Below, piece after piece: positions 2,644 to 15,942 of a DNA stretch of 29,986 bases (position 1 is its first letter; each line of letters opens with the position of its first letter). The notes below the pieces were generated by a model. It made no database searches. It was not told where the DNA came from and was given only the letters and a program-made list of their open reading frames with translations. A program made the position numbers and the translations under genes. The DNA lies in the IMG/VR virus record IMGVR_UViG_3300024518_000549, positions 1 to 29,986 of that record; one strand, 5' to 3'. The stretch comes from a virus.

Positions 2644-3042
2644 TTAAAAGTTTTGTTGATTTTTTAATTCGTCTAGTTTAGCTTTGTAATCATTAAATAT
2701 ATCTAACCATTCATCGTCTGATAGTTTGTATATCTCACGTGATTTTATTAATAGTTCTTCTGATAGTTGTTCTCCTAATGATAAAGAATATTCATATTGA
2801 CGCCCATACTCAAAACGGTTACATTTACGGCACTGACTGTAAACGTTTCTAGGGTCGTAGCGAGTAGATAATCTACCCCTTGATATAAAGTGACCAGCAT
2901 CGCTTTCTGTAAAATGTATAGGTTTTTTACAGGTTATGCAATTACAATAGCCAGTATTATTATCAGCATCTCTACGTCTTATATATTCGTGAAATACTTT
3001 GTCAATTTTATTTTTCCAGTATTTTAATGTTTTTTTTGCCAT
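2644..3042 (-). CDS. NinG-like HNH/zinc recombination endonuclease
   Basis: The 132-residue protein carries the NinG core. It has a basic helix (KYWKNKIDKVFHEYIRRRD), a zinc cluster CNCITC (C33, C35, C38), the AGHFISRGRLSTRYDPRNV block (49-67, H51 and N66), then a second cysteine pair QCRKCN (C71, C74), and a helical C-terminus. Lambda NinG supports phage recombination and has a treble-clef HNH-like fold, so strand cleavage or junction processing is the likely role. Compared with lambda NinG (about 200 residues) the N-terminal extension is missing. The same frame is open for 35 further codons upstream with Lys-rich sequence but without a standard start. ATG 3042 is the only ATG in frame there. 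The promoter at 3174-3206 serves it; a terminator follows. Confidence 0.75.
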   Translation of the reverse strand: MAKKTLKYWKNKIDKVFHEYIRRRDADNNTGYCNCITCKKPIHFTESDAGHFISRGRLSTRYDPRNVYSQCRKCNRFEYGRQYEYSLSLGEQLSEELLIKSREIYKLSDDEWLDIFNDYKAKLDELKNQQNF

Positions 3043-3212: not shown

Positions 3213-3692
3213 TTATTTATTTTTCCAATGCTTTGTTATTTTCTCAGCTGAACGCATCCCGAAATAACCACCATAAACCAAAAGCAATAAAGAACTAAGT
3301 AAATCAATCCAATCAGAAGATATTTTAAAGCCATCTAAAGAACTATCTAATATTATGTATATAAATAGCGTAGCGGTTAAAAAAGCCAACGTTAAAGGTC
3401 TTATATTGCGTGTTAAATAACTGTCTGTATTGTTGTCTGAAACCCATCGCTTTGTCGTTTCTTGCATTTCTATTTTATCGAAGTTTAGTTCTTCTAATAA
3501 AAGTTGTTTATCTGTTTCGCTTAATTTGTCATCAGCACCTATTTTACTAGCTAAAACCTCTAAGGCTTCTATTCCTGTAACGTTCCCAGCTATTTTTAAT
3601 AGTTCTGGTGCTACTTCCTTACCTTGTTTTAATAACCAACGTAAAGCATCTCCTACTCTTGTCGTTCCGTTTTTATCTTTGTATTTAGGCAT
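3213..3692 (-). CDS. holin-like protein with two membrane segments
   Basis: This is a 159-residue protein with a charged, soluble N-terminal half (residues 1-95). It is followed by two hydrophobic segments, about 98-117 (RPLTLAFLTATLFIYIILDS) and 128-144 (WIDLLSSLLLLVYGGYF), and a basic C-terminus. The RPLTLxFLT and LLLxVYGxYFGxRSxEK patterns resemble the phage holin family found in many Bacteroidota and alpha-proteobacterial phages (GTA holin-like). It overlaps the end of the endolysin gene by 8 nt, which strongly suggests a lysis role: membrane permeabilisation or release of the muralytic enzyme. The 52-residue membrane protein on the other side of the endolysin is a second holin/antiholin candidate. 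Confidence 0.75.
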   Translation of the reverse strand: MPKYKDKNGTTRVGDALRWLLKQGKEVAPELLKIAGNVTGIEALEVLASKIGADDKLSETDKQLLLEELNFDKIEMQETTKRWVSDNNTDSYLTRNIRPLTLAFLTATLFIYIILDSSLDGFKISSDWIDLLSSLLLLVYGGYFGMRSAEKITKHWKNK

Positions 3693-4062
3693 TATTCCAA
3701 CGTGCTTTAGTTTTTCTAATATCGTAATGTGTAAAAGTTTGGTACATACCTAAGCCACCTTGAAGTATTTCCCCAGATAAAATCAGTTCTTCTAAATAGT
3801 CGTAAGTATCTAAAACTGGGTCAAGTCCTTGTATAACTATATCAGCAGCTTTACCTAGTAAGTGTTGAGAGTTTACAGAACCACCGACCGACTTATTATG
3901 TGCTTCACATCTATAAGCACTGTTTATTGTTATAGGCATCGCAACGCAATCTCTAACATACTGTAATTGGTTTGCTAGTTTGGTAATATTAACCAAAACA
4001 TCGCTAGGCATTTCACAACCACACTTACAATCAAATTCTTTTATGCTAAAATTTTTAGTCAT
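3685..4062 (-). CDS. endolysin, M15-family (D-Ala-D-Ala carboxypeptidase-like) peptidase
   Basis: The 125-residue protein is a single M15_3-type zinc peptidase domain. INSAYRCEAHN (46-56) is the characteristic strand. SQHLLGKAADI (65-75) supplies zinc ligands H67 and D74, and THYDIR (111-116) supplies H112. A Cys-rich N-terminus FDCKCGCEMP (10-19) is common in this family. There is no signal peptide, so export should depend on a holin, consistent with flanking membrane-protein genes overlapping it by 8 nt on each side. It should cleave peptide cross-links in peptidoglycan at the end of infection. ATG 4062 is preferred because of the overlap with the upstream 52-residue gene. Confidence 0.9.
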   Translation of the reverse strand: MTKNFSIKEFDCKCGCEMPSDVLVNITKLANQLQYVRDCVAMPITINSAYRCEAHNKSVGGSVNSQHLLGKAADIVIQGLDPVLDTYDYLEELILSGEILQGGLGMYQTFTHYDIRKTKARWNNA

Positions 4063-4585: not shown

Positions 4586-7282
4586 TTATATTGTTGTTAA
4601 ACATTCTAGTTCTTCATCTGTAAGAGCTTCTTTAAAAACTGCTATACATTTAGTTTTACCAAAGAAATTATTACTATAAAAACCATTAAAACTTAGGTTG
4701 TTAAAAGTATTTGCAGAAGGCGTGACTCCATTTGAACTTGTTGCGACTTTGTTACCATTTATGTGTAAACTAAAATCATTAAGCTTCCATTTAAAAGCAA
4801 TTTTATAGAAAGATGTAATATCACTTACCGCTGGTCTTTCGTAAACCTGTAAAACTCCGCCAACTTCCATATATATAATAGCTCTTGATGATGATGTGAA
4901 CCCTAGTTCAATTCTATTTGAAACAGTGGCGTCATTTATAGATATAGAACCACTAAAATCAGTTAATGAAGCTATCTCTGCATATAGTACTCCCTCTGTT
5001 GAGTTTATTAAATCTGAGCTACCTGAACCAAATGCTGCATCGGCTAAACGTGTTTTTATTGACCCTTCGGTTGGTATGTATGAAGTGCTGAATGAATTTT
5101 GTTCTAATTGTGCACCCCAAGCGTAAATAGTAGCACTTGAATTAGATGGTTCTGTTCCTCTTAAACCCATTGATAACCTATCAGATGTAGCATCGCTTAC
5201 TTCAAATCTATTCCAATTAGTAGTAACTGATATTGTTTTATAACTTATATCATCAGAAGATATTTCTATGTTTATATTAACATCTGATTTTAAATAAACA
5301 GAAGAAGTGCCATTTATATCAGAACCACCATAGTCCAATCTTATTAAACTATAATCTGAATTACTTGTCGCATTCCCTTTGTTAAATATAATTTTATCAG
5401 CGTTTTGTGTTCCATCTGGAGATGTTGAATTATTAGAAGTAACAATTGGCAAAGAACCTGTACCACCATTTAATTTACTCCATTGATTAAAATCTTCTGA
5501 ATACGTTACTAAATTCGTACTCTGCGGCTCAAATAACCAGCTCCCACGTCCGCTATCTGGTACTACTTCTTGACCTAGAACTTCTTTTACAGATACGTTG
5601 TCTATGTAAGAAACTTCTCCACTTGTGCCATTACCTCTTATATAAAAATATGAATCATTTCCAGTTGTAGTTACATACCCTCCGTAAGTGTTTTCAGAAA
5701 TTAAACTTAAATTTATAGGGTTATTAACGCTATTTATATACCATTGTGGTGATAATCCGTTTGTTATATATGCTTTACAAAAATAAGTTTTTCCCGTTTC
5801 TATTGATAAGTCAGTTCTTTTAATAAAACCTTGAGAACCAACGGTTGTAACTTTAGCCATTCCGTTTTCAAGTTCTAAAGTAGAGCCAACGTGTGCTGAC
5901 CATCCATTTAAACCATCACTAAAATCACCATTACTAACCAACTCACTTCCTAAAGAATCTTGATAACTAAACCCTTCGTAGTTTATTCTAGGTAGGTTAG
6001 TGTCGTCTGTAATTTCTATTACTGAAATGTTTGATATACTATAAGAACTTCCACTAGAAGTTGTGGAATAAATTCTTAATTCTTGACCTATTGGAGCAGT
6101 AACATTAAAAGTATGTTCTCCGTTTGCATAATTTGCGTAATTAGCTAAATTACTAGCAGCTCCATCTCCTACGCCAAAAAAAGCAGTTCCACTCGTTAAG
6201 TCAGCTACTGTCAATTTTATTTGATATTTCTTATTTGCAGTAAAAACATTGCTTGAAGTTCTAATATCACCACCAATAGTATCGCTAAAAATAGCTTTGC
6301 TAGTACCAATACTCCAAGCATTCGACAAAGTCCAATCTTGTCCGACCTCTTTAACGCTTACGTTGTTTATTTTTATGTTAGGGTTTGAATTATCAGCATT
6401 CTCAATATAAATTGTTGAGTTAATAATCGGACTTAATATTTGAAAAGTATGAACACCAACCGATGTTATTTGTTTCCATTGTTGCCCAACGGTACTTTGA
6501 AAAAACACATAAACACTTGAACCTAATTCCTCTACATCTATAGTTACTTGATAATAAGTGTTAGCTTTAGTATTAAGGGTTTGATATGCTTTTGTATATA
6601 TATTAACGTTTGTCCCTATTAAAGAATTGCCTGAAATACTCCAACCAGATTGTAAACCCCAATCACTATCTGTAGCAAAATTTCCGTTTGTTACTTCCTC
6701 CGAACCCTCTTGAGAGAAATCTCCGTTAGAAACTAAGTTACCACTAAGGATTTGCACGTCTTCAATTAAACCTTGTGAGTTTACTCTTGTGGCGCTAGAA
6801 TTCCTAGTGAAATCGAAGTCTCCGTCTATTGCTTCTTTTACTGAAACGTTTGTTACTTTTCCAACAAAACTATTACTACAAAACACCCCCAAAGGCTGGT
6901 CTGATGCCCAAATATGATTTATTGTATAGACACCCGCTGAAGTTATAGTTAATGCTGGTGTACCACCAAGTCCACCATAAACATACAAAGTACCTGATAA
7001 AACTTCTGTTACATTTATTGAAATTTTATATAATCTTCCTATTACACCTAAGTCATAACTTGTTTGTGCATAAGAACCACTTACTGCTACTGCTCTAACT
7101 AATTGATTAGCCTCAATAGTCCACCCAGTTCCTAAAGTCCAACCAGTAGAGCCATTACTAAAATCGCCATTTGTCACCAGCTCTTCACTTAAAACTTCTT
7201 CAGGTTTAACACTTAATATTTTACCATTATCGTAAGATGTTGGAGTAGTTACTATACTCGCTTTTTCTAATAAATTACTCAT
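4586..7282 (-). CDS. large tail fibre/adhesin with four inserted beta-sandwich modules and LamG-like end
   Basis: The 898-residue protein shares its core with the smaller neighbour at 7476-8717. The shared pieces are a short N-terminal tip, an ATRVNSQGLIE segment (164-173), LPRINYEG (430-437), LFEPQSTNLVTYSEDF (583-598), YIPTEGSIKTRLAD (735-748) and a LamG/concanavalin-like C-terminus ending ALTDEELECLT. Four modules interrupt this core, at about 34-150, 181-312, 313-425 and 446-568. Three begin with an NGDFS-type strand and all close with a N(V/I)SV(K/I)E(V/A/I) strand, like carbohydrate-binding CBM4/9-type beta sandwiches. It probably sits on the virion surface and binds glycans on the host. 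Gene order (virion genes before, lysis genes after) fits. No enzymatic residues are recognised. Confidence 0.82.
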   Translation of the reverse strand: MSNLLEKASIVTTPTSYDNGKILSVKPEEVLSEELVTNGDFSNGSTGWTLGTGWTIEANQLVRAVAVSGSYAQTSYDLGVIGRLYKISINVTEVLSGTLYVYGGLGGTPALTITSAGVYTINHIWASDQPLGVFCSNSFVGKVTNVSVKEAIDGDFDFTRNSSATRVNSQGLIEDVQILSGNLVSNGDFSQEGSEEVTNGNFATDSDWGLQSGWSISGNSLIGTNVNIYTKAYQTLNTKANTYYQVTIDVEELGSSVYVFFQSTVGQQWKQITSVGVHTFQILSPIINSTIYIENADNSNPNIKINNVSVKEVGQDWTLSNAWSIGTSKAIFSDTIGGDIRTSSNVFTANKKYQIKLTVADLTSGTAFFGVGDGAASNLANYANYANGEHTFNVTAPIGQELRIYSTTSSGSSYSISNISVIEITDDTNLPRINYEGFSYQDSLGSELVSNGDFSDGLNGWSAHVGSTLELENGMAKVTTVGSQGFIKRTDLSIETGKTYFCKAYITNGLSPQWYINSVNNPINLSLISENTYGGYVTTTGNDSYFYIRGNGTSGEVSYIDNVSVKEVLGQEVVPDSGRGSWLFEPQSTNLVTYSEDFNQWSKLNGGTGSLPIVTSNNSTSPDGTQNADKIIFNKGNATSNSDYSLIRLDYGGSDINGTSSVYLKSDVNINIEISSDDISYKTISVTTNWNRFEVSDATSDRLSMGLRGTEPSNSSATIYAWGAQLEQNSFSTSYIPTEGSIKTRLADAAFGSGSSDLINSTEGVLYAEIASLTDFSGSISINDATVSNRIELGFTSSSRAIIYMEVGGVLQVYERPAVSDITSFYKIAFKWKLNDFSLHINGNKVATSSNGVTPSANTFNNLSFNGFYSNNFFGKTKCIAVFKEALTDEELECLTTI

Positions 7283-7476
7283 TATTCACAGTTTTCTAAG
7301 GCGGTTAATATTTCGCTAGTTCCAGTCGCATTTTCATAATACGTTGCTCTGGCTTGTAAAGTCGTTAAAAGGTTAGGCACTGCACTTGTTACCGACAAGT
7401 CAAAGTATATGCCACCCCAACCAAATTGAACTGGTAATCCCCACCAAGTTGTTTTATATATTTCTCCGTATCCCAT
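7282..7476 (-). CDS. 64-residue virion-associated protein between two fibre genes
   Basis: A small aromatic, glycine-rich protein (MGYGEIYKTTWWGLPVQFGW) with a helical C-terminal half. It has TAATG junctions on both sides, to the small fibre gene upstream and the large fibre gene downstream. The "GEIYxxTWWG" opening is reminiscent of short proteins placed among fibre genes of Bacteroidota phages. A structural adaptor between fibres is possible; the function is unknown. Confidence 0.72.
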   Translation of the reverse strand: MGYGEIYKTTWWGLPVQFGWGGIYFDLSVTSAVPNLLTTLQARATYYENATGTSEILTALENCE

Positions 7477-8717
7477 TATGTTGTTAATTTTATTATTTCT
7501 TCATCTGTTAAAGCGTTCCCAAAAACTTGTGAATTGTAAATCTCACCTTCAAAATTTAAGTAGTCATCATTACCTTGAAATTGAAATATATTTAATTCAC
7601 TAAATAATCTATTAGTGTCTAAATAACTATTTAAAAGTTGTCCGTTTGCAAAAAGCTTATAGCTTCCGCTATCCCATTTAACCGCTACTTTAAGCCTTCC
7701 GCCATTGTGCGTAAAATTATAATTAACTATTGGAGAACTAGGAAACTCATTTATAAAAAACTGTAAAACGTTTGAAGTTTTAAATGCGAATTGTATTAAA
7801 TTGAATGTCCCACCTCGTAAACTTATTACGTTACCAAGTGTATCACTAGAAGCAACCGCAAAAGGTTTAACGTCTAAAAAAACCACTCCTTTATTTTTGT
7901 TAAAATCTGTTTCAGCTTTAACCTTACGCTCCAATTCTCTTGTAACGGTACTGCCTTCCGTTTTAATGTAGCTGCTTAAATAGTTACCTTCTTCAAGTTG
8001 TGCCCCCCAGAAATAATTATAATCGCCTTTAGTGACAGTAAGATTTCCATTTGATGTTGTTCCGTAAATGTAAGGTCTTACAGTTGTGTTTCCAGAAGTT
8101 TCACAAGTGATGGATATTCTATACCACCCATTTGTAAAAGATTCAATGCTGTTATCTATTAACGTTATTTCGCTTCCAGTTGTTTGAGGGGTGAAAGATG
8201 TTCCTTTTCCTAAATCAAAAAATATACTTGAATAATCTGTTTCAGCGTCATTAAACAAGGCTAAGTTGCAATATGTAGCATTTCCTTTTTTAGCAAAAAC
8301 TGATAAAACAATAGTTGAACCGCTTGTAATTGAAGCAGACCCCCTAAGTCTCATTCCAAGAACGCTAGACGAATTACATTCTAATTTGTCAGCGGTTTCA
8401 GTTCCTTCTGGTGAAACGTCTTCGTTTGCTGTTACAGTTGTTCTTGTTTTTAGCCATAAAGCATTATCAAATTCTTCGCTTCTTAATTGTCTGTTTGTTC
8501 TACTTCCTTCCATTAAAAGGCTAGGACAATCACCACTCCAATTCAAGCGTGGGTTATTTGAGCCTACAATTGTTTCAATTAAACCGTTTTCTTTTACTCT
8601 AGTTGCATCGCCAATCCTAAAAAAATCAAAATCTCCATCACCATCAACTGGTAAAACAGAATAAACTTTGCTGTTTTTATATCCGCTTGGTATTATTGCT
8701 AGTATTGGGTTTTCCAT
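7476..8717 (-). CDS. tail fibre/receptor-binding protein with CBM-like and LamG-like domains
   Basis: I place the start at ATG 8717 (MENPILAIIPSG), which overlaps the upstream stop codon as TAATG. The frame is open to 8759, but that region lies inside the previous gene. The 413-residue protein begins with a tip followed by DATRVKENGLIE (37-48) and PRLNW (56-60). Residues 70-240 look like a carbohydrate-binding beta sandwich (SEEFDNALW, WYRISITCET, YFWGAQLEEG). After SYIKTEGSTVTR comes a LamG/concanavalin-like domain ending ALTDEEIIKLTT. It is a paralogue of the 898-residue protein without the inserted modules. It probably binds surface glycans on the host. Confidence 0.82.
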   Translation of the reverse strand: MENPILAIIPSGYKNSKVYSVLPVDGDGDFDFFRIGDATRVKENGLIETIVGSNNPRLNWSGDCPSLLMEGSRTNRQLRSEEFDNALWLKTRTTVTANEDVSPEGTETADKLECNSSSVLGMRLRGSASITSGSTIVLSVFAKKGNATYCNLALFNDAETDYSSIFFDLGKGTSFTPQTTGSEITLIDNSIESFTNGWYRISITCETSGNTTVRPYIYGTTSNGNLTVTKGDYNYFWGAQLEEGNYLSSYIKTEGSTVTRELERKVKAETDFNKNKGVVFLDVKPFAVASSDTLGNVISLRGGTFNLIQFAFKTSNVLQFFINEFPSSPIVNYNFTHNGGRLKVAVKWDSGSYKLFANGQLLNSYLDTNRLFSELNIFQFQGNDDYLNFEGEIYNSQVFGNALTDEEIIKLTT

Positions 8718-9169
8718 TATCTTTCTATTATTATTGAAGTAGTAGCACAGTACCACCATTCACCGTTCACTTGTAGTCTTAACGTTACTGTTTCCCCTTT
8801 ATTTATTTCTATTGACCTACCAAAATCTAAAACTACTGATTCCCTTACGTTGTTTCCGTAAGTATCTGTTTCACTACCTTTTAAAACACCATCTACATAA
8901 ACACTTAAAGTCAAAGAGCTTCCACTAGGAAACTGCCTAGAACTATAAGGCATTGACGATATAATAAATTGACTAAAATAACCATTAAACGGCACTGGAA
9001 TACCACCATAAGAGAACGGAAACGTTGTACTAGAACCATTATCATAAAGCGTGTAGGTATTAACACCACTGATATAATGTCTCCAAGTCACAGATATTTT
9101 TTCAGTCGTTAAACCTCTGCTTGTGTATTCTACTGACTTCGCTCTTATAAGGTTATTTGTAGAAATCAT
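8717..9169 (-). CDS. beta-rich virion protein, fibre-base candidate
   Basis: The 150-residue protein has dense Ser/Thr/Tyr/Gly beta-strand patterning (ISVTWRHYISG, SSLTLSVYVDGVLKGSET, GETVTLRLQVNGEWWY) with no catalytic motif, signal peptide or TM segment. It lies between a very small basic gene (ATGA overlap) and the first fibre gene (TAATG overlap). It could be an attachment piece for fibres or a minor capsid decoration; I cannot choose between them. Confidence 0.72.
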   Translation of the reverse strand: MISTNNLIRAKSVEYTSRGLTTEKISVTWRHYISGVNTYTLYDNGSSTTFPFSYGGIPVPFNGYFSQFIISSMPYSSRQFPSGSSLTLSVYVDGVLKGSETDTYGNNVRESVVLDFGRSIEINKGETVTLRLQVNGEWWYCATTSIIIER

Positions 9170-9785: not shown

Positions 9786-11603
9786 TTAGTTTTTGAATTT
9801 CATTTTGTTCCAATATTCGGCTGTATAACCTTTGTACTTCATATCCTTTGGTGCTACTGGTACTTTCTGTGCGTTCTTAGGCATTTTAAAACCTTTACTT
9901 TTAGCTTGACCGCTTGTTATTTGGCTTTTTTTACCTTCTTTAATTTGATAGGTCTTTCTGAACCACTTATGATTGCATCTAGCACCGCCTTTATATAACC
10001 ATATAGAGTATGTATCTGAGCCACCTTTGCCAAAACCAGCGTTTACAGATTTTTTACCCATTGCCACAATATCTTCTTTGCGATATACTTTTTTAGCTCC
10101 TATCATTTTAGAACAAAACTGTCTGCTGTTTGACCCAGCTTTTTCAGGTGCATAAGAATAACGTACTAAAAACTCAACACCCTTTTGACTATCTTGTTTT
10201 GATTTGCCATCTTGTTTGCTTTTTGCGTTTGGTTTAGCCGTTCCAGTACTTACAAAATTCCATATTTTAGACAACGTTGTTTCATCTTCTTCTAGTTCAG
10301 TGTTTAAATCTGTTATAACTTCGTCTAGTTCATCGTTTAATTCATAATCAACTTCGCTTTCATCTACTAAATCATATTCAGCTAGTAGTTCTTCTTCACT
10401 CTCTCCTAAGTCGATTAATTCATCAGCAATATCACTACCCAATTCATCAGGTAAATCTTGACTAAGTTTAACCCCAGTTTCTTCTTCTCTAGTTTCTGCG
10501 TCCTCAACGTTTTCTAAGTCTGTAAATTCTAACGGTTGAAGCGTTTTAAAGTACAATTTAAGGCTCATTTGATTAAATGCTAGTATAGAATCAAAAGCAT
10601 CTATTAAAAGCGTCTGAAATGGTCTTATAACGGTGTTATCCATTAAGGTACTAGCTGTAATTAATTCTTGTGCATTATTACCAAGTCCGCTATTATCTTT
10701 AATACCTAAAAGCATAGGTGAAACCACTCTGTGTGCTACCATTACTTTTTTAGAACTTTCATCACTTAAAAATTGATATTGTTGATGTGCTTCGCTTAGT
10801 TGTATAGGCTCAATAGTTGCTGCACTTTCTGGATTGTCATTAAATGCTAAAATAAATTTACCTGCATTGCTAGAACCGCTAAACTTAGAATATATACGGT
10901 TTTCTAAGGCTTGGCGTTCTTCAGCGTTTGGTGTACCATTGTTAAAATTTATTAACATTGAAGGAGCTAATCCGTTCAGGATATTATTTAAATGATAGTT
11001 CGAGATTTCCTGTTCGAGCTCAGCATATTGTAAACCACCAGCATAATCTGGACTTGAATAGTATTTATACCCAGCTCTGTAAGGTTTTACATATATAATC
11101 TCAATATTTTCTTTACTACTTCCAAAAGATGGTATTCTAGTTGTGTGACCTACGTTCTTAACCTTCTTCCAATCATCAGCATAGTAATACGCTTCTATTT
11201 CGCCTTTGTCATTACATTTTTCAGCTCTTAAATTTTCAACAGGAATATGTTCAACTTGTGCAATAGTTTTTTTATCCTTAGAGTAAATGACTTGCATAGC
11301 ACATTGACCCATAAGTTTAAGGTCATAGCATAATTTACGAACCATATCTTTATGAAACAAAGAAATCATTTTAGCGTACTGCTCTGGCTTTTTATTTGAG
11401 TTTAAAGCATCTAGTCCACGACCGTAAATCATCTCACTAATTCCATTAATAATAGCGTTATTTGTTGGGCTACCATTGTAACGTTGGATTAAATAATTAA
11501 AATAATTGTTATCAGAACCATAACTAACCCATTCTTTGTTTGATTTCTCAACAATTTCTGGAGTTGTGTAAGTACTTAAATTTACTATTCTTAAATCGTT
11601 CAT
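9786..11603 (-). CDS. portal protein with fused C-terminal head-morphogenesis-like domain
   Basis: Residues 1 to about 360 are a phage portal: an N-terminal segment with WVSYGSDNNYFNYLIQRY, a stem/wing region with SNYHLNNILNGLAPSML (201-217), and a crown-proximal part VMVAHRVVSPMLLGI (287-301) with LITASTLMDNTVIRPFQ (314-330). A very acidic linker (about 362-442) follows. A separate basic module (about 475-550) has RYSYAP, SRQFCSKMIGAKKVYRKEDI and YKGGARCNHKWFRKTY (C497, C543, H545, W547). The last module recalls the Cys/His end of Mu gpF-like minor head proteins, suggesting a portal-minor head protein fusion. The portal forms the ring through which DNA enters. Total length (605) exceeds a bare portal (about 400-500). 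Confidence 0.85.
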   Translation of the reverse strand: MNDLRIVNLSTYTTPEIVEKSNKEWVSYGSDNNYFNYLIQRYNGSPTNNAIINGISEMIYGRGLDALNSNKKPEQYAKMISLFHKDMVRKLCYDLKLMGQCAMQVIYSKDKKTIAQVEHIPVENLRAEKCNDKGEIEAYYYADDWKKVKNVGHTTRIPSFGSSKENIEIIYVKPYRAGYKYYSSPDYAGGLQYAELEQEISNYHLNNILNGLAPSMLINFNNGTPNAEERQALENRIYSKFSGSSNAGKFILAFNDNPESAATIEPIQLSEAHQQYQFLSDESSKKVMVAHRVVSPMLLGIKDNSGLGNNAQELITASTLMDNTVIRPFQTLLIDAFDSILAFNQMSLKLYFKTLQPLEFTDLENVEDAETREEETGVKLSQDLPDELGSDIADELIDLGESEEELLAEYDLVDESEVDYELNDELDEVITDLNTELEEDETTLSKIWNFVSTGTAKPNAKSKQDGKSKQDSQKGVEFLVRYSYAPEKAGSNSRQFCSKMIGAKKVYRKEDIVAMGKKSVNAGFGKGGSDTYSIWLYKGGARCNHKWFRKTYQIKEGKKSQITSGQAKSKGFKMPKNAQKVPVAPKDMKYKGYTAEYWNKMKFKN

Positions 11604-13607: not shown

Positions 13608-14222
13608 TTAATTATTTAGTCTTGACATTACTCTATCAATAGTAGTGCTTTTTCTGTTTTTAGAAACACTGAATTTTGATATAGCTTTGTTTACTTCTGG
13701 ATTTGATACGATAGGCTCGGCACTTGGCTCGTTTAGTTCAGCTTGTACTTCAACAGGTACTTCATTTAACTCAACTTTTTCGTGTTTAGCTAATTCTTCT
13801 GTTAAAAGGTTTCCTAAGTCCTCGCTTAAATCTTCTTTTGGTTCTAGCATTGCTTTGATTTCTTCAATCATATCTTTAACTTCTGCTAGTTCTTCTTTAG
13901 TAGCATAGCCTAAAGATTCTTCTTCTTCCGCTGCTTCAACCTCAACTTCTTCTTCTTCGGTTTCTTCTTCGGCTTCAGCATCTTTAATTTCAGAAATTAC
14001 ACCTTCTTCAGCTACTACTAATATTTTACCATCTTCAAGAATGTAGTCACCAACAGGCAAAGCTACTTTTTCATCTTCTGTAACGATAAACACTTCCACG
14101 CCACTTTCAAACGAATCAGCTTCGATGACTGTACCGTTGTCTAGTTTAGCTTGTTCTAGCTTAACTTCCTCGTTAAGGTTTAGAACGTCTTTGATTTTTT
14201 CAATCACTTTGTTTGATTTCAT
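13608..14222 (-). CDS. acidic scaffold-like head assembly protein
   Basis: The 204-residue protein has a helical N-terminus (MKSNKVIEKIKDVLNLNEEV) and a small beta domain (NGTVIEADSFESGVEVFIV, PVGDYILEDGKILVV). Next comes an extremely Glu-rich run (about 86-105), a coiled coil (KEELAEVKDMIEEIKAML), and a basic C-terminus (SKFSVSKNRKSTTIDRVMSRL). Acidic, helical proteins with basic ends placed just upstream of the capsid gene are typically scaffolds that template the procapsid and are removed on maturation. The nearby XkdF-like protease candidate could cut it. Confidence 0.75.
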   Translation of the reverse strand: MKSNKVIEKIKDVLNLNEEVKLEQAKLDNGTVIEADSFESGVEVFIVTEDEKVALPVGDYILEDGKILVVAEEGVISEIKDAEAEEETEEEEVEVEAAEEEESLGYATKEELAEVKDMIEEIKAMLEPKEDLSEDLGNLLTEELAKHEKVELNEVPVEVQAELNEPSAEPIVSNPEVNKAISKFSVSKNRKSTTIDRVMSRLNN

Positions 14223-14261
14223 ACTTATATATAATTTAGATTAATTTAATTTGCATTTTTA

Positions 14262-14642
14262 TTATCCTAACATAGCATAAAGACCATTTGCGGATTTATC
14301 TGCTCTTGATTGTAATTCTGATAAATCACTTCTATATGCTTGTAATTGTCTAATAGATATTTTTGCCTCAGGTGGCAGTTCAATCCCTAAATCTTTTGCA
14401 GAAGAAACTAATTTTTTAACATCGCTATCTGTAGCATCAATTCTTTTAACTATAGCTTTTGATTTGTTAGCAATGTCATCTACTTCATTTGCTGCTCTTC
14501 TTATAGCACCGCTTAAAGCATCTGCATCAGATTTTATTTTATTATAAGTTTTTTCAATATCATCAACTAAAGCCAACTCAATTTTTTGATTAGATAATTC
14601 CTCTTTATTTAAGTGTTTGTAAACTTTTTTTAAATTGTTCAT
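14262..14642 (-). CDS. helical coiled-coil protein in the head module
   Basis: A 126-residue almost fully helical protein (KAIVKRIDATDSDVKKLVSSA, IRQLQAYRSDLSELQSR) with heptad patterning and no cysteines or membrane segments. It lies 28 nt after a fibre-like gene and 39 nt before the scaffold-like gene. It may help scaffold assembly or be a minor virion component. No family is recognised. Confidence 0.7.
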   Translation of the reverse strand: MNNLKKVYKHLNKEELSNQKIELALVDDIEKTYNKIKSDADALSGAIRRAANEVDDIANKSKAIVKRIDATDSDVKKLVSSAKDLGIELPPEAKISIRQLQAYRSDLSELQSRADKSANGLYAMLG

Positions 14643-14670
14643 TTTATTTATTTATTAATTTGTATTTTCG

Positions 14671-15120
14671 TTATGCTTTTTTCTGAATTATGAACCACTG
14701 TAAGCCATCACTCCAAACTTGAATACCCTCATAAGCCTTGTTAATTACATAAGCAGCCGTTGACCCATCTAAAGTGTCGCTACCTATTGGTGTTAGCTCC
14801 GTTCTTGTAGCCGTTGCATAACCACCGTTAGATATAATTCTAATTATTCTATTTGTACTACTAGCAGCACTAGGTAGGTTTAAGACTTGCGTTCCATTTG
14901 CACCACTCCAAGAAAGTTTAATTAGTATTGAGTTTTGATATGCTGCATCGCCTAAACTTACTGTAACATCTGGCTCAACCGTTAGGCTTGTAGGGATTAA
15001 ATAGTTGTCTATGTGATTTAATGATGTTTGTTTTGTAACGCCACCTTGTACGATTGCAAACAGTTCACCGCCTTGTAAATCTGTGGCTATTGGTAAAGCA
15101 CTTATTTTTGAATTTGCCAT
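14671..15120 (-). CDS. virion accessory/fibre-like protein
   Basis: The 149-residue protein opens MANSKISALPIATDLQGGEL and continues AIVQGGVTKQTSLNHID. This is the "I-S-x-L-x-x-A-x-x-L-x-G-x-E-L-x-x-I-V-Q-x-G-x-T-x-K" attachment sequence I recognise from many phage fibre and decoration proteins. The rest is beta-rich (VLNLPSAASSTNRIIRIISN, GIQVWSDGLQWFIIQ). It is probably a virion surface or decoration protein anchored through its N-terminus. It overlaps the upstream Cys-rich gene by one base. Confidence 0.72.
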   Translation of the reverse strand: MANSKISALPIATDLQGGELFAIVQGGVTKQTSLNHIDNYLIPTSLTVEPDVTVSLGDAAYQNSILIKLSWSGANGTQVLNLPSAASSTNRIIRIISNGGYATATRTELTPIGSDTLDGSTAAYVINKAYEGIQVWSDGLQWFIIQKKA

Positions 15121-15344
15121 TATGGTATAATATTATAGTTATCTTCTTGAAGTATTAAATCTCCGTTTTCTTGTACTAAAAAATCTTCTTGTATAGTTGC
15201 TGAAATACTCCCTATTCCTTGTGCTATAATATCACCATTACAGCATTCAATAGAATAAGCGTCCCTATCCCTACATAAGCAACCCCTACGACCGTTTCTA
15301 GGACTTGTTTTGCTTGGCGTAAAATACTTTGACCACCTACCCAT
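15120..15344 (-). CDS. 74-residue Cys-containing protein between protease and head genes
   Basis: Opens MGRWSKYFTPSKTSPRNGRR, then GCLCRDRDAYSIECCNGD with four cysteines (C22, C24, C34, C35), then AQGIGSI and an acidic end. The CLC...ECC arrangement could bind zinc or form disulfides in the virion. Short proteins with an RGCxCxD...YSxxCCxG core occur in Bacteroidota phage head clusters in my recollection, but I know no function. The start overlaps the protease gene by 8 nt. Confidence 0.72.
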   Translation of the reverse strand: MGRWSKYFTPSKTSPRNGRRGCLCRDRDAYSIECCNGDIIAQGIGSISATIQEDFLVQENGDLILQEDNYNIIP

Positions 15345-15942
15345 TATTTTCGCTTTCTTTTATGATGTCAATTATTTCTTGAACCATTAAATCCTCTTTA
15401 GATAACCCTTCGTTAATCGGTTCTTTTGGACGTTCCATCTTATCAGCGAAGTAACCCTCAATACTAAAACCTTTTACTTTACCAGTTTTTACAAACTCAT
15501 TCCAGATTTTATCGTTGTTTACTTTAACACTACCAACCCAAGAACCTAAAGGTAAGTCCATTCCAAACTTCACACTCTTATCGTGTACTTTATCTTCAAC
15601 TATCCAACTTTCAACTAAACTTAAACCTTCTAATTCGTACTGATGTTCTAGTGTTGAGTTGTTTTGTTTGCTATTCATTAAATACATCTGGGACGCTTTT
15701 AAGACAGTATCTTTTGAAAAATATATGTAGTATTCATCTTCGCCATTGCGTCTGTAAATAGGCTTGTTAGGTATTAATAAAGCACCCATTAATATCCTAC
15801 GCTCACCATCTATTTCTGCAAGTTTAAACTCTTGGCTTTTTAAAGCAACAAAATCTTCTTCAATTGCTGGTGATTCCACAACGCTTATAGCTTCTATCCC
15901 TAGTTCGCTTTCTTCGTCTAATATCAATTCGACTATTCTCAT
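15337..15942 (-). CDS. XkdF-like putative prohead serine protease
   Basis: The 201-residue protein begins RIVELILDEESELGIEAISV followed by VESPAIEEDF, the hallmark opening of the XkdF/peptidase S78_2 family. NKPIYRRNGEDEYYIYFS, NSTLEHQYELEGLSLVESWI (with a possible catalytic His and Ser) and LPLGSWVGSVKV follow in the family order, and KGFSIEGYF closes the fold. It should trim the scaffold or capsid inside the prohead. It starts the head module, 35 nt after the tape measure gene. Confidence 0.82.
   Translation of the reverse strand: MRIVELILDEESELGIEAISVVESPAIEEDFVALKSQEFKLAEIDGERRILMGALLIPNKPIYRRNGEDEYYIYFSKDTVLKASQMYLMNSKQNNSTLEHQYELEGLSLVESWIVEDKVHDKSVKFGMDLPLGSWVGSVKVNNDKIWNEFVKTGKVKGFSIEGYFADKMERPKEPINEGLSKEDLMVQEIIDIIKESENNG

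Follow-up and report, generated by a model that had tools for sequence, protein, structure and literature searches.

The receptor-binding proteins of phages are known for shuffling, which usually affects a single terminal domain at a time, and in the distal tail fibre adhesins of T-even phages, in work from 1998 by Tetart, Desplats and Krisch, the motifs reportedly lie within one adhesin region. Here we describe gene A, which encodes an 898-aa modular fibre protein, and its insert-free paralogue, gene B, in IMG/VR virus record IMGVR_UViG_3300024518_000549 (29,986 nucleotides; we call this whole stretch the window). In the family of A, by contrast with the T-even adhesins, every folded domain is flanked by long conserved linkers, and the number of domains varies, with up to seven per protein. 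The conserved part of these proteins is the linkers (about 11–60 aa), while the inserted modules and both lectin-like 'core' domains are all exchangeable. It is likely that A is a receptor-binding fibre diversified by cassette exchange, probably through homologous recombination in the linkers, with both the receptor binding and the recombination enzyme being putative.

According to excerpts of published work, the head spike fibre of RcGTA binds the host capsule (PMC10218006, PMC7296036). Its protein Rcc01080 aligns with the insert-free profile of our family from ATRV through PR..Y, LLLE..TN and the lectin-like domain to WGAQLE..IPT..TR; unlike in A, the three insertion sites are empty and there are no inserted modules. 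The RcGTA fibre is attached to its base pentamer by a Leu/Ile-rich N-terminal anchor, and no such repeat was seen by eye in the N-termini of A or B; as this anchor is absent and no base protein was recognised, we did not adopt a head-spike assignment for A. Excerpts on lactococcal phages describe 'evolved Dit', in which a loop of a conserved virion protein has taken up a carbohydrate-binding module (CBM), and neck passage proteins that diverge in their CBM region (PMC9692632). As described there, each Dit has one insertion loop, whereas A has three sites and its family up to five added modules; moreover, the protein that carries the inserts is not recognised as Dit, and both of its terminal domains are exchanged too. 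A has no Pfam match to any family, and the folds found in it (lectin-like and CBM-like) may yet be compatible with the structure of a Dit, which consists of a belt and a galectin domain. The tandem carbohydrate-binding-type (BACON) domains reported for crAssphage, among Bacteroidetes phages (PMC6949934), belong to a different domain family and are described as a tandem repeat, where A has three sites with swapped units. Ongoing domain shuffling has been described for phage receptor-binding proteins (PMC10684548), and the excerpts on domain mosaicism and marine metaviromic islands describe neither fixed multi-site insertion nor constant linkers with all domains replaced. Neither the shuffling of phage domains nor the insertion of CBMs is new in itself; the layout of many slots with constant linkers and variable modules is, and no earlier description of a fibre with three fixed sites, long constant linkers and every folded domain exchangeable was found in openly licensed PMC papers.

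An earlier note on this DNA had claimed that an 898-aa protein and its 413-aa neighbour share a core, interrupted in the larger one by four beta-sandwich modules. This observation was confirmed. Both are found as open reading frames (ORFs) on the minus strand (Table 1); the neighbour has 413 aa if it starts at the in-frame ATG at 8717, which overlaps the stop codon of the preceding gene, and 427 aa from the first ATG (8759). The core blocks ATRV, GLIE, PR(I/L)N, STNL/SRTN, TEGS and ALTDEE are all found in A and B in conserved order, and B has the same layout without the modules, which sit at three breakpoints of A. These breakpoints are real gaps, since the BLASTP match between A and B falls into separate pieces, one across the C-terminal half (E 7e-16) and one covering DGDF..ATRV..GLIE (2e-5). 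When the four related segments of A (modules M1–M4) were aligned pairwise and each pair was tested against 500 shuffles, four of the six pairs beat all of them (z of 12.4 for M1–M2, 11.0 for M1–M4, 8.8 for M1–M3 and 7.6 for M2–M3); M2–M4 is weak (20 shuffles reach its score) and M3–M4 alone is not significant (307 shuffles). Against D5 (the STNL domain) and D6 (the LamG-like domain) of A, no module gives a significant alignment. The end motif N(V/I)SV(K/I)E is present in all four modules, and the claim that most start with NGDFS is loose: it fits M1 and M4, while M2 starts with NGNFA behind an NGDFS stub and M3 with GQDW.

Relatives came from three sources, i.e., an alignment search (80 kept of at least 501 related viral stretches), a search for portal relatives (80 kept of 395), and a degenerate DNA pattern of linker L3 that matched 103 viral stretches. 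They gave 159 ORFs, 126 of them distinct, and 103 of these were parsed; the counts below refer to the parsed set, without the 23 proteins that failed the motif search and without loci L261–L280 (loci carry three digits, linkers one). We note that linker conservation is partly due to sampling, as loci were picked by similarity or by the linker DNA pattern. The 103 proteins contain 272 modules in 13 architectures, with 0 to 5 modules each, and the inserts are always found at the same three linker positions: before ATRV (site N, 0–1 copies), between GLIE and PRINY (site G1, 0–4 copies) and between PRINY and WLFEPQSTNL (site G2, 0–1 copies). Lengths increase in steps of about 118 aa per module, and other distances between anchors are nearly invariant. 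For example, the median length of G1 is 116, 244, 358 and 474 aa with one to four modules, an N module lengthens the distance from the start to ATRV from 41 to 165 aa, and the ATRV–GLI spacer is 3 aa in 103 of 103 proteins. A few G1 segments exceed the length predicted by their module count, probably because a junction was missed. Presence and absence in relatives, together with the stepwise lengths, strongly support repeated insertion at three fixed sites, and both copy number and position vary between phages as had been predicted. The earlier note would have given up this idea if the regions were an invariant part of homologues, and they are not: modules 1, 2 and 4 are missing from L004 and module 1 from L003, in which site G1 holds three modules, and L002 has the same four slots as the window with different content in three. 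The GLI-to-PR site may accept inserts in distant phages too, to judge from cyanophage S-TIM54 and fosmid phage MedDCM-OCT-S45-C18, where a lectin-like stretch of another kind was read between the GLI-like and PR/LL blocks.

Two further observations concern the same architecture. The 1410- and 1413-aa proteins of L008 (4525–8754) and L015 (3790–8028) have a second complete core, with the same order of blocks, fused behind the first. The window has a single NGDFS stub, resembling a left-over module head, at aa 186, and L003 (2605–5208) and many other G1 segments have two to three tandem 13-aa module heads (NGNFSQIG, NGNFSQEG, NGDFATDSDW) ahead of the first G1 module; these look like remnant starts of lost modules.

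The comparison of A with its relatives did not bear out the shared core as a constant scaffold, with which we had also started: D5 and D6, the folded domains of this core, vary as much as the modules and exchange as readily, and the linkers are conserved instead. Between A and L002, the linker centres are 84–96% identical at the nucleotide (nt) level, as compared to about 33–60% for modules 1, 2 and 4, D5 and most of D6 (which climbs to 72% at its end); module 3 is common to both. Outside gene A and its edges L002 has no blastn match to the window, so gene A has moved between phages with different flanks. In L116, whose portal is 93.7% identical in aa to that of the window (portal and next gene together 87.9% nt), all six domains differ from those of A, mostly at 30–57% nt, with linker centres at 75–97%. 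Among pairs with 90–95% linker nt identity, 335 out of 345 module slots, 48 out of 50 D5 and 14 out of 15 D6 fall below 60% nt (the 1751 pairwise comparisons behind the slot and linker identities are not independent). Median nt identities of the domain bodies are 0.39–0.48, with D5 at just 0.39, and that of D6 still reflects a common fold. Gene B follows the same pattern at a smaller scale in its alignment with L089 (portal 97.9%), where residues 1–75 are 94–100% identical and the remainder drops to 31–74%; with L094 no swap of B was seen.

Recent swaps have their edges at linker ends. A 10,055-bp stretch that is 99.8% identical between L189 and L238 breaks off at the last 10 nt of L4; D6 is different, and similarity returns near its end. 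L225 and L247 are different in one module, before which they match up to the very end of junction J1 and after which they match again from 10 nt inside L2. A single module, along with its two junctions, is common to L171 and L200 (97% over 349 bp), with unrelated neighbours on either side. These edges fit the prediction of linker-mediated exchange; alternatively, they could be survivors of selection for intact folds.

Table 1. Genes A and B and the features of A from the N- to the C-terminus; positions are those of the window, residues those of the encoded protein.
Feature	Position	Strand	Residues	Remarks
Gene A, modular fibre protein	4586..7282	minus	898 aa	ORF; PHROG 5939 'tail protein', E 2.1e-26
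Gene B, insert-free paralogue of A	7476..8759	minus		ORF; PHROG 5939, E 2.8e-39
Linker L0, ends in first NGDF module head	7160..7282	minus	1–41	first 25 residues 97% nt identical to L116
Module 1, optional N site	6833..7183	minus	34–150	absent in L003 and L004
Linker L1, ATRV..GLIE and NGDFS stub	6710..6832	minus	151–191	89–93% nt identical to L116
Module 2, first of site G1	6347..6709	minus	192–312	CBM16 fold match; missing in L004
Intermodule junction NVSVKEVGQDW	6332..6364	minus	307–317	median aa identity 0.91, 2278 pairs
Module 3, last of site G1	6008..6346	minus	313–425	kept in L002 and L004; replaced in L116
Linker L2, ITDDTNLPRINY and next NGDFS head	5921..6031	minus	418–454	median nt identity 0.80, 1653 pairs
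Module 4, optional site G2	5579..5947	minus	446–568	absent in L004; fold match to CBM22-bearing 2wys
Linker L3, GQEVVPDSG..WLFEPQSTNL	5486..5599	minus	562–599	median nt identity 0.79, 1653 pairs
D5, exchangeable lectin-like domain	5120..5485	minus	600–721	homologues in RcGTA (head spike fibre) and phage E217 (gp45)
Linker L4, WGAQLE..TEGS..EGVLYAEI	4973..5119	minus	722–770	48–51 aa in 72 of 72 parsed cases
D6, exchangeable C-terminal LamG/CBM40-fold domain	4628..4972	minus	771–885	6er3 fold match; swapped between L189 and L238
C-terminal tag ALTDEELECLTTI	4589..4627	minus	886–898	median nt identity 0.64, 1378 pairs

A and B belong to PHROG 5939 and the RcGTA-type fibre family by homology across the linker blocks and the lectin-like domain. 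The insert-free profile headed by B matches Rcc01080 (PDB 6tb9) with an E-value of 1.9e-52, as well as E217 gp45 and Pa193 gp46; the profile headed by A matches 6tb9 (E 2.1e-36) at positions 556–746 only. The model of B superimposes on Pa193 9b45 (Z 20.4, root-mean-square deviation (rmsd) 2.4, 171 aligned). The model of A has a mean pLDDT of 67.8 and a pTM of 0.32; the relative placement of its domains is not predicted. Stretches with pLDDT below 50, including residues 1–31, 153–188, 426–442, 571–601 and 728–758, are parts of L0–L4; the conserved linkers are thus among the regions that the monomer model cannot fold, for which an oligomeric stalk would be one explanation. The module blocks are mostly at pLDDT 65–90, with module 3 lower (about 50–77) and parts of D5 low too. 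According to VIA-align, module 2 matches the CBM16 structure 2zex (Z 13.9, rmsd 2.8, 122 aligned), module 4 the CBM22-bearing 2wys (Z 12.3, rmsd 2.5, 123 aligned), and the D6 model (750–898) 6er3 of the sialic-acid CBM40 group (Z 16.4, rmsd 2.6, 149 aligned). Modules 2 and 4 therefore have the beta-sandwich fold of the CBM4/9, 16 and 22 type, with moderate to good local pLDDT; modules 1 and 3 are scarcely covered by the fold matches listed. We took Foldseek and VIA-align matches to insecticidal and neurotoxin domains as common beta-sandwich folds and no evidence of toxicity.

Receptor or glycan binding is putative; in its favour are the family of the fibre, the resemblance of its modules to CBMs in fold, relatives that bind sugars, and how fast the domains are replaced. 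Together with the turnover, family and fold make diversification of the receptor range, as the earlier note had proposed, a reasonable inference. Instead, the modules may be spacers or general glycan or mucus anchors that lengthen the fibre or slow diffusion, comparable to the Ig-like domains on phages, their variation being neutral drift rather than receptor choice. Zero to five copies occur without loss of the gene, the insert-free form is present in cultured phages, and the folds are generic beta-sandwiches, all of which would suit spacers; however, the turnover is extreme (the 335 of 345 slots replaced at 90–95% linker identity), beyond what neutral spacers need, and in L098 and L100 the whole slot of A is taken by unrelated proteins, as expected of an adsorption gene. 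We consider the spacer explanation rather unlikely.

The pool from which the modules of these fibres are drawn is far from sampled: 264 modules form 228 clusters at 90% and 163 at 50% identity, 114 of the latter being singletons. None of the 378 module pairs within a protein reaches 60% identity, so modules come from elsewhere. For 85 modules the nearest neighbour is 60–90% identical, and in 42 of these it is at another site; module 1 of the window is such a cross-site case, its nearest relative being the third G1 module of L003 (79% aa identity). Cross-site neighbours have the same start-junction type in 44 of 66 cases (null 0.39; 0 of 2000 shuffles reach this), and in 44 of 74 after module ends were trimmed (null 0.38; again 0 of 2000). 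It would be a poor fit to these data, and is very unlikely, that modules arose by repeated tandem duplication within the gene and diverged in place without exchange. All modules do have one fold and one end motif in common, and repeated head stubs (NGNFSQIG..NGNFSQEG..NGDF) precede the first G1 module, as duplication would leave; yet no internal pair is that similar while 85 modules have their 60–90% neighbour in another protein, unrelated modules are flanked by linkers at 90–95% identity, and the single-copy D5 and D6 swap as well. Searching bacterial genomes gave a single match, a contig of a Flavobacteriaceae metagenome-assembled genome (MAG), and the module profile has matches in 6 of 149 genomes of this MAG's family. 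Three of the eight profile-matched loci were read. L261 is phage-like, and its 264-aa ORF (1474–2268), next to a gene we take to be capsid-like, bears one N-terminal module (E 9.5e-14); the module is hence also used in another protein. L262 and L263 encode host proteins with NGDFENG..DNVSL repeats, and the ORF beside the L262 protein is presumably GH30-like. Judging from these three loci, the pool would seem to be carried mostly by phages, with host glycan-binding modules as distant relatives.

A mosaic of this kind might also be largely an artefact of short-read assemblers joining different phages at conserved linkers, given that linkers of 30–180 bp at above 90% identity are the type of repeat that breaks assemblies and that many contigs of portal relatives terminate near the fibre genes. 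This is highly improbable in view of 11 groups of identical proteins with at least two modules, each assembled in two to three metagenome data sets (data sets from one site or co-assembly may not be fully independent), of the window itself recurring in L001, of reading frames open across up to five modules, and of the portal-to-M15 order kept in relatives. Recurrence of combinations argues against random mis-joins, less strongly than long reads would. A dedicated device (retroelement, invertase or integrase) would explain cassette-like units with conserved borders at fixed sites, and is the least credible, as the record (possibly a fragment) has no PF00078 reverse transcriptase, PF00239 resolvase/invertase or PF00589 integrase, and the gene has no inverted repeats and only short, imperfect direct repeats.

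Several points weigh against cassette exchange between glycan-binding fibres. No Pfam family matches A at E ≤ 1, and CBM_4_9 (PF02018) matches 4 of 34 sampled modules at E ≤ 0.1 (best 3.6e-4), for which reasons we call the modules CBM-like and not CBM_4_9. There is some site bias, with the nearest neighbour in the same slot for 102 of 258 modules (53 expected). Conservation at synonymous sites does not mark most linkers as recombination tracts: the fraction of identical residues with the same codon is 0.58–0.63 in L0, L1, J1, J2, L4 and L5, as compared to 0.60 in the portal, and clearly exceeds it just in L2 (0.72) and L3 (0.68). L2, L3 and J2 had stood out among all pairs and the portal yardstick leaves L2 and L3, so nt conservation of linkers was not accepted as proof of recombination. 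No single-strand annealing protein was recognised among the scanned proteins of the window using Pfam and PHROGs, and a candidate at 1732–2112 was rejected as it does not align with the ERF recombination protein of the Nonlabens phages. Finally, the contigs are metagenomic and mostly short, and linker repeats favour chimeric assembly.

From the terminase/portal side, the gene order is portal (9786–11603), a 166-aa gene, a 150-aa gene, B, a 64-aa ORF and A, followed by a 120-aa gene, an M15 endolysin (3685–4062) and a holin-like gene (3213–3692). The 150-aa beta-rich protein (8717–9169) encoded directly ahead of B is kept in L098 and L100 and may serve as the base for attachment of the fibre, although no PDB entry matched it below E 0.16. 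L098 and L100, with portals about 95–96% identical to that of the window, have in the slot of A an unrelated 157-aa ORF (14442–14915) and an unrelated 544-aa fibre that is YadA-head-like by eye (14206–15840), respectively. In the cultured Nonlabens phages P12024S and P12024L, from seawater and isolated on Persicivirga sp. IMCC12024, the order is that of the window: the portal is followed by small genes, the insert-free homologue of the fibre and an M15 peptidase. This synteny and the Flavobacteriaceae MAG match point to marine Flavobacteriaceae as the host group of the window phage. The P12024S homologue (L167, 5995–7662) ends in leucine-rich repeats, BspA-like by eye, rather than a LamG-like domain, a further C-terminal replacement; no domain swap was seen between the two isolates, which are near-identical up to the C-terminal repeats. 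The window also encodes a NinG/Rap DNA-junction endonuclease (2644–3042; PHROG 5034, E 3.9e-24), a possible helper of recombination.

Under the preferred explanation, the product of A would be part of the virion of a marine Flavobacteriaceae phage, a fibre that shares ancestry with the head spike fibre of RcGTA and with related tail proteins and that has exchangeable CBM-type beta-sandwich domains in series between conserved linkers (six here, up to seven in the family). The modules may bind host or environmental glycans, and swapping them would change the set of surfaces bound. Co-infecting or resident phages would swap domains by recombination, homologous or annealing, in their linkers, which at 30–180 bp would supply the homology; the NinG/Rap junction endonuclease is at hand. 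Modules are probably added and exchanged among related viruses to keep pace with changing bacterial surface sugars. More tentatively, and with somewhat less than even confidence, we propose a combinatorial receptor array for this large group of marine phages: hundreds of glycan-binding modules, largely phage-borne, would circulate as a common pool through a constant frame of linkers, up to seven per fibre, and the start-junction type would guide their exchange.

The entire fibre consists of slots in a row, with borders that can be seen in the nucleotide sequence, and its family counts at least 501 related viral stretches. The rate and route by which phages of marine Bacteroidota re-arm against their glycan-rich hosts would therefore be measurable from sequence alone, and the family provides a large natural set of small modules for studying glycan specificity. 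Should the modules turn out to differ in the glycans that they bind, hosts might be predicted with the help of module combinations. The combinatorial array, if true, would be a virus-side analogue of the constant/variable receptor design, with nearly every fibre lineage having its own set of domains.

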